From NCBI RefSeq assembly GCF_023721715.1, contig NZ_JAMDLG010000001.1, forward strand, positions 1,651,784-1,715,783: a stretch of DNA of 64,000 bases. The letters run 5' to 3'. Made by a program: the position numbers and the translations under genes. The notes under the pieces were generated by a model. It saw only the letters and a program-made list of their open reading frames with translations, did not search any database and was not told the origin of the DNA. Shown one piece after another: positions 4,591 to 33,530 of this stretch. Numbering within the stretch: position 1 is the first letter of the stretch; every line of letters starts with the position of its first letter. This stretch comes from Parasegetibacter sp. NRK P23 (GTDB lineage: Bacteria > Bacteroidota > Bacteroidia > Chitinophagales > Chitinophagaceae).

Positions 4591-5616
4591 ATGCAAAACA
4601 GGAGATTTTTTCTGAAACTATTTTCGGCAGGAAGTCTGGGCACGATTCCCTTTTTGAATGCCAGTGCGGGATCGCGGGAAAGAAAACCCGCTAAAGGAAA
4701 GGCTGTTGTAATTTCCACCTGGGATTTCGGGAAGGAAGCGAATGCCGCTGCCTGGAAAACATTGGGTGCCGGAGGCGCTGCGCTGGATGCGGTAGAGCAG
4801 GGTGTACACGTTCCGGAGGCCGATCCAACGAACCAAACCGTTGGCCTGGGCGGATTCCCCGACCGTGATGGCAAAGTAACGCTGGATGCCTGCATTATGG
4901 ACCACCAGTTGAACTGTGGTTCAGTGGCCTGCCTGGAAAATATACTTCACCCCATTTCTGTGGCAAGAAGGGTGATGGAAAAAACACCCCATGTAATGCT
5001 GGTGGGAGAGGGTGCCTTGCAATTCGCGCTGGCGCAGGGTTTCGAGAAAACAAACCTGCTTACGCCCGCTTCCGAAAAAGCCTGGAAAGAATGGCTGAAA
5101 ACATCGCAGTACGAACCGGTCATCAATATCGAGAACAGGAAAAAGGAAGAAGATCCGAAACACTTACCTGGCGGGCCCTACAACCACGATACGATTGGGA
5201 TGCTCGCGCTGGATGCCGACGGCAGGATGGCTGGAGCCTGCACCACTTCAGGGGCGGCCTGGAAAATGCACGGCAGGGTGGGTGATTCTCCGATAATCGG
5301 TGCAGGCTTATATGTAGACAATGAGATCGGTGCAGCTACTTCCAGTGGGTTAGGGGAAGAAGTGATCCGTACCTGCGGCTCGCACCTGGTGGTAGAACTG
5401 ATGCGGCAGGGCAACTCCCCGGAAGAATCCTGTAAAAAAGCGGTGGAACGCATCGTGAAGCGTGATCCCGTAAAAGCGAAGAAACTGCAGGTCGGCTTCC
5501 TGGCACTCAGCAATCAGGGGACTTACGGCGCTTTCGCCATTCATCCCGGGTTCACTTTCTCCGTGAAGAGTCAACAAACGGAAACCATCATAGCGGCAAA
5601 AAGCTGGTTCAAATAA
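4591..5616 (+). CDS. glycosylasparaginase (N4-(beta-GlcNAc)-L-asparaginase)
   Basis: An N-terminal-nucleophile hydrolase that cuts the GlcNAc-asparagine bond of degraded N-glycoproteins. The 341-residue precursor has a Tat-like leader (NRRFF near the start, then a short hydrophobic stretch to about residue 26). The self-cleavage motif is HDTIGM, making Thr201 the nucleophile of the beta chain after autoproteolysis. The alpha chain contains the family's WDFGKEANAAAW-like region. The beta chain has the GDSPIIGAGLYVD segment that binds substrate. The length matches secreted glycosylasparaginases of other Bacteroidota. cutC follows after 5 nt and is probably co-transcribed. An isoaspartyl dipeptidase is the alternative, but the HDTIGM context favours glycosylasparaginase. 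Confidence 0.9.
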   Translation: MQNRRFFLKLFSAGSLGTIPFLNASAGSRERKPAKGKAVVISTWDFGKEANAAAWKTLGAGGAALDAVEQGVHVPEADPTNQTVGLGGFPDRDGKVTLDACIMDHQLNCGSVACLENILHPISVARRVMEKTPHVMLVGEGALQFALAQGFEKTNLLTPASEKAWKEWLKTSQYEPVINIENRKKEEDPKHLPGGPYNHDTIGMLALDADGRMAGACTTSGAAWKMHGRVGDSPIIGAGLYVDNEIGAATSSGLGEEVIRTCGSHLVVELMRQGNSPEESCKKAVERIVKRDPVKAKKLQVGFLALSNQGTYGAFAIHPGFTFSVKSQQTETIIAAKSWFK

Positions 5617-30881: not shown

Positions 30882-30898
30882 AAACAAATAGTTTGAAA

Positions 30899-31159
30899 AT
30901 GGGACTTGCAAATCCAGTTCAGCAACAGATAACGCAATATTTACCCAGGCTGAGTGCGGAACAGCAGAAAGCGGTATTAACCGTAGTAAAAACTTTTGTG
31001 AAACAACAGGAAACGCATCATTCGAGCCCTTTAGAGGATTCGGCGTTTGTTGCTGAAATGGATCGGCGCATGGCTGAATTGGAAAACAATGAGGTTAAAG
31101 GTGTTAGCTGGGAAGAAGTGAAACGTAAAGCCCGTAAGTCGGTAAAATCATCCAAGTAA
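30899..31159 (+). CDS. antitoxin-like addiction module protein
   Basis: An 86-residue hydrophilic, mostly helical protein. The C-terminal part MDRRMAELENNEVKGVSWEEVKRKAR matches the addiction-module component family (TIGR02574-like) that pairs with ParE/RelE toxins. The extended N-terminus VQQQITQYLPRLSAEQQKAVLTVVKTFV may form the dimerisation and DNA-contact part. ATG 30899 is preferred over TTG 30893. The stop codon overlaps the toxin start by one base (TAATG), so translation is probably coupled. The family call rests on the C-terminal motif and on the partner. Confidence 0.75.
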   Translation: MGLANPVQQQITQYLPRLSAEQQKAVLTVVKTFVKQQETHHSSPLEDSAFVAEMDRRMAELENNEVKGVSWEEVKRKARKSVKSSK

Positions 31160-31464
31160 TGAAGTATGCACTTGTATTTCATCCCGCTTCACAGATGGAA
31201 TATACAGAAGCATTCATATGGTATGAAAAACAGCAAGCAGGACTTGGACATGAATTTGAGGAAGCATTGGAAGAAAGATTACTTCAAATTGCACAACATC
31301 CGGAACATTACAGTGCTGTAAAGAAGCCTTACAGGGAAGCGAGCGTTAATAAATTTCCTTTTGTAATTGTATATAAGATCAGTAAACAGACACGAAGTGT
31401 GTTTATTTTCTCTATTTTTCATACAAGTAGAAATCCGAGACTGAAGTACCGAAAGAAAAATTGA
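31159..31464 (+). CDS. ParE/RelE-superfamily toxin
   Basis: A 101-residue basic protein with the ParE fold pattern: MKYALVFHPASQMEYTEAFIWYE, a helix pair ending LLQIAQHPEHYS, then strands REASVNKFPFVIVYKI and VFIFSIFHTSRNPRLK. In this superfamily the toxin either poisons gyrase (ParE) or cleaves mRNA on the ribosome (RelE). The sequence alone does not decide, although the FHTSRNP ending is common in ParE. Its start overlaps the antitoxin stop. The pair has a complete promoter of its own. Confidence 0.85.
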   Translation: MKYALVFHPASQMEYTEAFIWYEKQQAGLGHEFEEALEERLLQIAQHPEHYSAVKKPYREASVNKFPFVIVYKISKQTRSVFIFSIFHTSRNPRLKYRKKN

Positions 31465-31565: not shown

Positions 31566-32705
31566 ATGCAATTTCATTTGTCTGAAGAACATTTGATGAT
31601 ACGCCAGGCAGCCAGGGATTTTGCACAGAACGATTGCCTGCCCGGAGTGATTGAAAGGGACGAAAAACAACAGTTTCCCAAAGAACAGATCAAAAAACTG
31701 GGTGAACTCGGTTTTATGGGTATGATGGTGGATCCGAAATACGGCGGGGCCGGAATGGATACCATCAGCTATGTACTCGCTATGGAGGAAATCAGTAAAG
31801 TGGACGCGAGTGTGAGCGTATGTATGAGCGTAAACAACAGCCTGGTGTGCTGGGGACTTGAAAAGTTTGGGAGTGAAGAACAGAAGCAGCAATACCTTGT
31901 GCCGTTGGCGAAAGGGGAGAAGATCGGCGCTTTCCTGTTGAGCGAACCGGAAGCCGGCAGTGATGCCACCTCACAGCGTACCATCGCAGAAGACAAAGGC
32001 GATCATTACCTGCTGAACGGCACAAAGAACTGGATCACCAACGGATCTTCCGCGGAAATATATCTTGTGATGGCACAAACCGATGTAGCAAAAGGTTCAA
32101 AGGGCATCAACGCGTTCATCGTGGAAAAATCATGGCCCGGAGTAACCGTGGGGCCTAAAGAAAACAAAATGGGCATCCGTGGAAGTGATACGCACAGTAT
32201 CATGTTCCAGGATGTGCGGGTTCCCAAAGAGAACAGGATCGGTGAAGATGGTTTCGGTTTCAAATTCGCCATGAAAACACTGGCGGGAGGAAGGATCGGG
32301 ATCGCGGCACAGGCGCTCGGCATTGCAAGCGGTTCCTATGAACTGGCCCTTAAATATTCAAAAGAAAGAAAAGCCTTCGGGAAAGAGATCATGCAGCACC
32401 AGGCCATCCAGTTCAAACTGGCGGATATGGCTACAAGGGTAGAAGCGGCCCGGTTGCTGTGCCTGAAAGCCGCCTGGGAAAAAGATAACGGTCTGGACTA
32501 CACGCTCAGCAGTTCCATGGCCAAGGTTTACGCATCTGAAACCGCCATGTGGGCAAGCACGGAAGCCGTTCAGGTGCACGGTGGCTATGGTTATGTGAAA
32601 GAATACCATGTGGAACGCCTGATGCGCGATGCCAAGATCACACAGATTTATGAAGGTACTTCTGAAGTACAACGCATCGTGATCTCCAGGGGAATTCTCC
32701 AGTAA
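31566..32705 (+). CDS. acyl-CoA dehydrogenase
   Basis: FAD enzyme that introduces the alpha-beta double bond of acyl-CoA in fatty-acid or branched-chain amino-acid breakdown. The 379-residue protein has family signatures GAFLLSEPEAGSDA, near residue 120, and QVHGGYGYVKEYHVERLMRD near the C-terminus. The catalytic glutamate is in ITQIYEGTSEVQ. It looks like a short- or medium-chain enzyme, but substrate is not decidable. ATG 31566 (MQFHLSEEH) matches the usual start. It has its own promoter. A 153-nt gap with strong inverted repeats separates it from the next gene. Confidence 0.94.
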   Translation: MQFHLSEEHLMIRQAARDFAQNDCLPGVIERDEKQQFPKEQIKKLGELGFMGMMVDPKYGGAGMDTISYVLAMEEISKVDASVSVCMSVNNSLVCWGLEKFGSEEQKQQYLVPLAKGEKIGAFLLSEPEAGSDATSQRTIAEDKGDHYLLNGTKNWITNGSSAEIYLVMAQTDVAKGSKGINAFIVEKSWPGVTVGPKENKMGIRGSDTHSIMFQDVRVPKENRIGEDGFGFKFAMKTLAGGRIGIAAQALGIASGSYELALKYSKERKAFGKEIMQHQAIQFKLADMATRVEAARLLCLKAAWEKDNGLDYTLSSSMAKVYASETAMWASTEAVQVHGGYGYVKEYHVERLMRDAKITQIYEGTSEVQRIVISRGILQ

Positions 32706-32714
32706 TGTTGAGGA

Positions 32715-32856
32715 AGGTTTTAAGTGGTACGGTAAATGTTGGGATGAACGGATAGGGTTGAAAACCCGGATGATTTATCTTTACAATGTTGTTGTGTAAG
32801 ATTAAATTGCAACGCCAACCTGTACTGCACCACTTAAAACCTAAAATCAACATTGT
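32715..32856 (+). other. structured leader of the yggS-like gene: two interleaved inverted repeats
   Basis: Repeat A has perfect 14-bp arms (AGGTTTTAAGTGGT, 32715-32728; complement at 32829-32842). Repeat B has perfect 9-bp arms (ACAATGTTG, 32783-32791; complement at 32848-32856). They are ordered A-B-A'-B', the topology of a pseudoknot. The last arm ends 2 nt before the ATG at 32859. A small hairpin GGGTT-3-AACCC lies at 32755-32767. Arms were read directly, and the RNA function is inferred. Confidence 0.6.
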
Positions 32857-32858
32857 TA

Positions 32859-33530
32859 ATGGGCATCAATCTCGTTCAATACAGGCATCTTCTTCAAACG
32901 CTTCCTCAGGATGTTACGCTGGTGGCGGTTTCCAAGCTGAAACCCGCTTCCGATATTCTTGCGCTTTACAATGAAGGCCACCGCGATTTCGGGGAAAATT
33001 ATGTACAGGAACTGACGGATAAACAGGGCCAGTTACCTAAAGATATCAACTGGCATTTTATAGGACATCTGCAATCCAATAAAGTAAAATACATAGCGCC
33101 ATTTGTAAGTCTGATCCACGGTGTGGACAGCTTGAAATTGCTGGCTGAAGTGAACAAACAGGCGATTAAAAATAAAAAGACCATCCCGGTATTGTTACAG
33201 GTGCATATCGCGAAGGAAGAAACCAAGTTCGGACTGGACGCAGCGGAACTGGATCAACTGATACAGGAAATACAGGGGCAACCTGAAATATGGACGGGCA
33301 TTCGGCTCTCCGGCTTGATGGGCATGGCCTCTTTTACGGAAGATGCCAGCCAGGTGAAAGCGGAGTTTGATATATTGGCAGAACTTTTCGAAAAATACAA
33401 GCCTGTGCAAACCGCAAACATCTCGTTCCGTCACCTTTCTATGGGGATGAGCAACGATTATGAGCTGGCCATTTCCTGCGGAAGCAATATGATACGCATC
33501 GGCAGTATGTTGTTTGGCGCACGAAACTGA
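32859..33530 (+). CDS. YggS/PROSC family PLP-binding protein
   Basis: A 223-residue TIM-barrel protein that binds pyridoxal phosphate and keeps B6 and amino-acid pools in balance. It has no known catalytic activity. Signatures are VTLVAVSKLKP (PLP-binding lysine), DFGENYVQEL, WHFIGHLQSNK and FRHLSMGMSNDYELAISCGSNMIRIGSMLFG. ATG 32859 gives the normal N-terminus, and the TTG at 32853 is less likely. The leader upstream is unusually structured (32715-32856). The gene is convergent with the mutase gene, with a single base between the two stop codons. Confidence 0.93.
   Translation: MGINLVQYRHLLQTLPQDVTLVAVSKLKPASDILALYNEGHRDFGENYVQELTDKQGQLPKDINWHFIGHLQSNKVKYIAPFVSLIHGVDSLKLLAEVNKQAIKNKKTIPVLLQVHIAKEETKFGLDAAELDQLIQEIQGQPEIWTGIRLSGLMGMASFTEDASQVKAEFDILAELFEKYKPVQTANISFRHLSMGMSNDYELAISCGSNMIRIGSMLFGARN

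Follow-up and report, generated by a model that had tools for sequence, protein, structure and literature searches.

A single-copy inverted repeat fills the gap between an acyl-CoA dehydrogenase gene and yggS in Parasegetibacter sp. NRK P23 and is predicted to fold into a nested RNA hairpin

Results

An inverted repeat spans the ACAD-yggS gap

We analysed a 64,000-nucleotide stretch of the Parasegetibacter sp. NRK P23 genome (the window) and found that the gap between an acyl-CoA dehydrogenase gene (ACAD) and the downstream yggS gene is filled by an inverted repeat. We propose, with a probability of about one half, that this element is a lineage-specific, single-copy intercistronic hairpin that covers the flank of the yggS start in a read-through mRNA. 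The features of the junction are collected in Table 1.

Table 1. Features at the ACAD-yggS junction, with positions in the window
Feature	Position	Strand	Remark
Acyl-CoA dehydrogenase gene (ACAD), upstream	31566..32705	+	Start codon picked by eye
Antisense ORF	32638-32853	antisense	
Whole inverted-repeat element	32703..32856	+	Predicted nested RNA hairpin; fills the ACAD-yggS gap
Outer 5' strand, TAATGTTGA	32703..32711	+	Begins at the ACAD stop codon; absent from the first-pass annotation
Main 5' arm	32715..32742	+	14 nt at its start perfect
Promoter-like match, sigma-70 type	32758..32787	+	10/12; inside the loop
Promoter-like variant, TATCTTTA	32776		In the window gap
Second promoter-like match, sigma-70 type	32780-32808		Overlaps the 32758-32787 match
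Arm B, ACAATGTTG	32783..32791	+	Described in the first-pass annotation; possible pseudoknot partner
Main 3' arm	32815..32842	+	14 nt at its end perfect
Outer 3' strand, TCAACATTG	32847..32855	+	Directly 5' of the yggS ATG; 32783-32791 is an alternative partner
yggS, YggS family pyridoxal-phosphate protein	32859..33530	+	Domain match

The identities of both genes rest on domain matches: PF00441, PF02771 and PF02770 for ACAD, whose TAA stop codon lies at 32703-32705, and TIGR00044 (E 9.5e-61) for YggS, whose ATG is at 32859. On the other side of ACAD, 5' of the gene (30893-31464), lies a small pair encoding a putative addiction-module component (PF09720) and a ParE-type toxin (PF05016), which is an ordinary toxin-antitoxin pair.

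A first-pass annotation of the window had described two pairs of complementary arms in front of yggS, one of 14 bp (32715-32728/32829-32842) and one of 9 bp (32783-32791/32848-32856), interleaved in the order A-B-A'-B'. Both pairs are indeed perfect, lie at these positions and interleave as described. The 14-bp arms belong to a longer inverted repeat (32715-32742/32815-32842) with 28-nt arms that are 86% complementary and stand 72 nt apart, the longest of the six repeats with arms of at least 18 nt within 250 nt found across the 64 kb. Under the one scoring scheme used it reaches a score of 19.0, against a maximum of 16 in first-order Markov copies (464 kb in three runs; 864 kb in five runs, loops of at least 40 nt). 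The inverted repeat thus exceeds chance, as the first-pass annotation had judged for its arms.

The short motif AATGTTG had been counted twice in this region, at 32735 and 32785. Both sites are there, and a third copy, the first in order, starts at 32704, where it overlaps the TAA stop codon of ACAD. When this upstream part is included, the element is flush with its neighbours: the main arms end 9 and 16 nt from the flanking genes, and the whole element ends at distances of -3 and 2 nt. A 5-bp direct repeat, TAATG, is found at 32703-32707 and 32857-32861, overlapping the inverted repeat as well as the stop and start codons.

The predicted RNA fold is a nested hairpin

Since the third AATGTTG copy (32704) can pair with the arm that precedes the ATG, the minimum-energy fold is one nested hairpin, running from the ACAD stop codon to just 5' of the yggS ATG. 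In this predicted structure 32703-32711 pairs with 32847-32855, outside the 14-bp stem and nested with it. The hairpin has a folding energy of -56.9 kcal/mol, compared with a mean of -37.9 (s.d. 3.9) for shuffled sequences (z -4.9), and none of 200 shuffles was as low.

The interleaved arms had been read as a pseudoknot-like leader. The interleaved complementarity is real; the need for a pseudoknot falls away because B' has a nested partner. The outer stem is in turn not assured, because B:B' alone is the stronger duplex: as isolated duplexes, B:B' gives -9.0 (-10.2 when extended) and the outer pairing -7.6. Folding energy is -59.1 for the nested structure; keeping both B strands unpaired gives -52.7, to which B:B' would contribute -10.2 before any pseudoknot penalty. 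These rough energies are close, and a pseudoknot is possible.

We also calculated how accessible the stretch before the yggS start would be. In the read-through RNA the predicted unpaired probability of 32847-32855 is 0-0.16. When the RNA before 32719 is withheld, as it would be by a ribosome finishing ACAD, that of 32847-32853 rises to 0.68-0.96; 32854-32855 have 0.23 and 0.14, and in the ATG the T has 0.08 and the G 0.03 (local fold). These last four positions stay mostly paired without the upstream strand, so opening would be partial. The earlier suggestion that the leader hides or exposes the yggS start is accordingly plausible in silico as far as pairing of the start flank in read-through RNA goes; its ligand-sensing part is not supported.

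The element has a single copy and the yggS leaders of related genomes are unrelated

A search of the organism's own genome returned one copy: the 13 matches at E <= 10 consist of the element, two matches to its own palindrome and ten matches of 14-24 nt. At the level of the family, one other genome had a match at E <= 0.001 (195 genomes), and at the level of the order eight others had a match at E <= 0.01 (396 genomes). The order matches are 20-36 nt long, and each overlaps an open frame of at least 150 codons (stop to stop). We take the short family and order matches to be chance. Plasmids gave no match to the element at E <= 0.1, and Rfam gave no covariance-model match up to E 10 in the 601 bases scanned. 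Our literature search, which covered listings and abstract openings and so gives no proof of absence, found no report of the element and none on a PLP riboswitch.

YggS is present in 140 of the 147 family genomes. We examined 90 of these 140 loci, our own included, and dropped 19 that had no usable match or start; in 28 of the 71 oriented loci that were left, again including our own, ACAD lies immediately 5' of yggS. Despite this common gene order the gap sequences are unrelated among relatives. The relatives' leaders, whose alignment the first-pass annotation had advised, are unrelated in sequence, with no conservation of the arms in the 70 leaders: the 14-bp arm pair is absent from them, the best candidate having 8 mismatches in 28 positions and shuffled leaders 7. 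Of the relatives compared, the nearest has 65% of YggS in common with ours, and the genus is represented in the collection by our own genome alone.

We then compared the ACAD-yggS gap of 26 relatives with gaps shorter than 300 nt (L028, with a gap of 596, was excluded). A terminator-like hairpin occurs in 13 of these gaps and a TAnnTTTG motif in 13; among the 17 relatives whose gap is at least 60 nt, 13 have a terminator-like hairpin. The window gap contains neither a terminator-like site nor a TAnnTTTG motif, and no T-run follows the stem on either strand. TAnnTTTG is enriched 5' of genes in our genome, where it was found in 88 of 290 upstream regions, compared with 13 after shuffling. The gap does contain two sigma-70-type promoter-like matches (Table 1), against a shuffle mean of 1.1 for the 601 bases scanned. 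Lacking both a terminator-like site and the motif, the gap gives no more than a hint that ACAD and yggS share a transcript.

Other structures were seen in the relatives. One of them (locus L031, genome G002) carries in its 250-nt ACAD-yggS gap an unrelated, very long GC-rich hairpin with CGCCTCCGGCGA-like repeats and a predicted folding energy of -152.8 kcal/mol. Repeats with a 7-nt period and differing sequence were seen by eye just 5' of yggS in five loci (L013, L015, L016, L030 and L033). When the 70 leaders are pooled, identity is 0.290 at lag 7 and 0.288 at lag 14, with 0.287 at lag 17 and 0.299 at lag 3, and pooling the gaps of our genome gives no increase at lag 7. As a signal, the 7-nt period in the relatives' leaders is weak.

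One-off long-loop repeats are rare in the genome but not unique

For background we used 864 kb, including the window, of the 4.83-Mb genome, with genes called by a home-made hexamer scorer and not by a standard gene finder. This sequence holds 38 long-loop inverted repeats scoring at least 13, against 7-16 in five Markov copies. Among the 24 scoring at least 17, 17 fall by eye into two dispersed types, which we call octad and heptad; the others are the window element, two overlapping repeats in L132, two parS-like repeats in L263, L261:17220-17356 and L250:16189-16292. One-off long-loop repeats are therefore rare in this genome without being unique.

We ranked the 169 gaps of 60-300 nt that lie between same-strand genes. 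For pairing of stop to start, the window element is second, with 8.66 expected pairs (10.18 in L254); at least 5 expected pairs are reached in 10 of the 169. For arm-to-arm pairing, which we calculated in the 107 gaps that exceed 97 nt, it is first with 32.1 expected pairs, followed by L254 with 31.7 and a third gap with 21.0. By fold energy per base the window gap is eighth of the 169.

The heptad elements, built of ATTCAAA-like units, are dispersed inverted repeats that adjoin gene ends: L254:19083-19214 is separated by 6 and 2 nt from the same-strand genes on its two sides, L258:11516-11641 by 2 and 3 nt from a convergent pair, and L129:3488-3622 lies 4 nt before a start. A search with one of these elements gave 75 matches in our genome at E <= 10, with 40 of the 84 candidates scored. 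In the family, 35 of the 117 genomes, our own among them, had matches at E <= 0.001. Like the heptad elements, whose loops are 56-76 nt, the window element (72 nt between its main arms) has arms that sit close to or directly at gene ends, and L254 likewise fills a same-strand gap. An early resemblance suggested membership of the family, which we rejected: the heptad profile did not match the element at E <= 50, and a 7-nt period is lacking (lag-7 p 0.43 for the left arm and 0.24 for the right).

Octad elements have an 8-nt unit of the TTTCTCGCAACG... type and lie in intergenic gaps (L141:12996-13254, L139:5497-5696, L143:10873-11111 and others); by eye, the window element has no likeness to them. 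Integron attC sites were also considered, and their core motifs were not seen by eye. In L263:5049-5335 there are three copies of GTTCCACGTGGAAC (at 5054, 5259 and 5315), which resemble parS partition sites.

Discussion

We propose that ACAD and yggS share one transcript, and that in this read-through RNA a nested hairpin, its imperfect arms about 40 nt long, would join, at its base, the stop codon of ACAD to the stretch before the yggS ATG. Such a hairpin would make the yggS start flank less accessible unless the outer stem were opened, perhaps partly, by a ribosome that terminates at the ACAD stop. The long stem may also protect the RNA or attract its processing. The element would occupy the place that a terminator-like hairpin takes in most relatives with a gap of similar size, and no ligand need be involved. 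The lack of sequence conservation suits a spacer better than a sensor. A transcript starting from a promoter within the gap would lose the 5' arm, which counts against an intercistronic role.

Intercistronic stem-loops in operon mRNAs act in processing, stability and coupling. The window element resembles them as a stable predicted hairpin between same-strand genes; it differs in spanning the gap from stop to start, in that its co-transcription is a proposal, and in having no relatives that would indicate selection. It also has a counterpart of sorts in the terminator-like hairpins of the corresponding gap in relatives (L018, L187 and L243), but there the loops measure 3-12 nt (the limit of the scan) and a T-run is present, whereas the window arms stand 72 nt apart without a T-run. 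The short-loop, GC-rich stem followed by a T-run that marks an intrinsic terminator is not found here, nor is any Rfam match of the kind expected from a riboswitch or known leader.

The main rival to the intercistronic hairpin is a one-off palindrome that is neutral, having arisen for example by inverted duplication within the gap, and that has no function other than spacing. We regard this as rather unlikely, although the element's single copy, the lack of any relatives found and its non-conservation in 70 leaders all agree with it; absence from relatives fits it equally well, and other long-loop repeats outside both dispersed families (such as those in L250 and L261) show that palindromes of this kind occur. 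What speaks against it is that the arms still match across 28 nt and that both ends are flush with genes (main arms, 9 and 16 nt; whole element, -3 and 2 nt). A remnant of a MITE-like mobile element would share with MITEs its small size and terminal inverted arms (about 40 nt), and TAATG could be its target duplication or could be chance, being built from the stop and start codons. Unlike MITEs, the element is single-copy and without relatives found: there is no second copy in its own genome (E <= 10), the 195 genomes of the family and 396 of the order gave nothing beyond short matches that look like chance, and plasmids gave none. The direct repeat moreover overlaps the inverted repeat, leaving the ends misaligned. 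We thus consider such an origin improbable, and the earlier idea of a mobile element bounded by the 14-bp repeat is unsupported.

Two further explanations give the element a regulatory part of another kind. It might be an unusual ACAD terminator, with a long loop and no T-run, that replaces the ordinary one of relatives, with yggS transcribed from a promoter in the loop. The terminator-like hairpins in 13 of 17 relatives' gaps of at least 60 nt and the promoter-like match at 32758-32787 point this way; the lack of a terminator-like site in the window gap and of a T-run after the stem on either strand makes it quite unlikely. A pseudoknotted leader that senses a ligand such as PLP and gates yggS can draw on the A-B-A'-B' complementarity and on the good B:B' duplex (-9.0, extended -10.2), but B' has a nested partner, the arms are not conserved in 70 leaders, Rfam has no match and the literature searched holds nothing on a PLP riboswitch. 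We hold this proposal of the first-pass annotation to be very improbable. Nothing indicates PLP, and we found no evidence for PLP sensing or for mobility.

What began as a pseudoknot or riboswitch lead has thus become a nested hairpin of an ordinary kind. It has no known relatives, was found in a single genome and has an unusual gap-filling shape. As a long shot, gap-filling inverted repeats of unrelated sequence might serve as stop-to-start clamps in this genome and perhaps the family, with the heptad element L254:19083-19214 and one-off palindromes like that of the window as examples. The hairpin would join a stop codon to the start that follows it, and the second gene would then be translated mostly in the wake of ribosomes completing the first; coupling would take the place of a terminator and promoter. 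The phylum makes little use of Shine-Dalgarno sites. If such coupling were true, it would give a simple linkage of two neighbouring genes and a use for inverted-repeat spacers that lie flush with gene ends.
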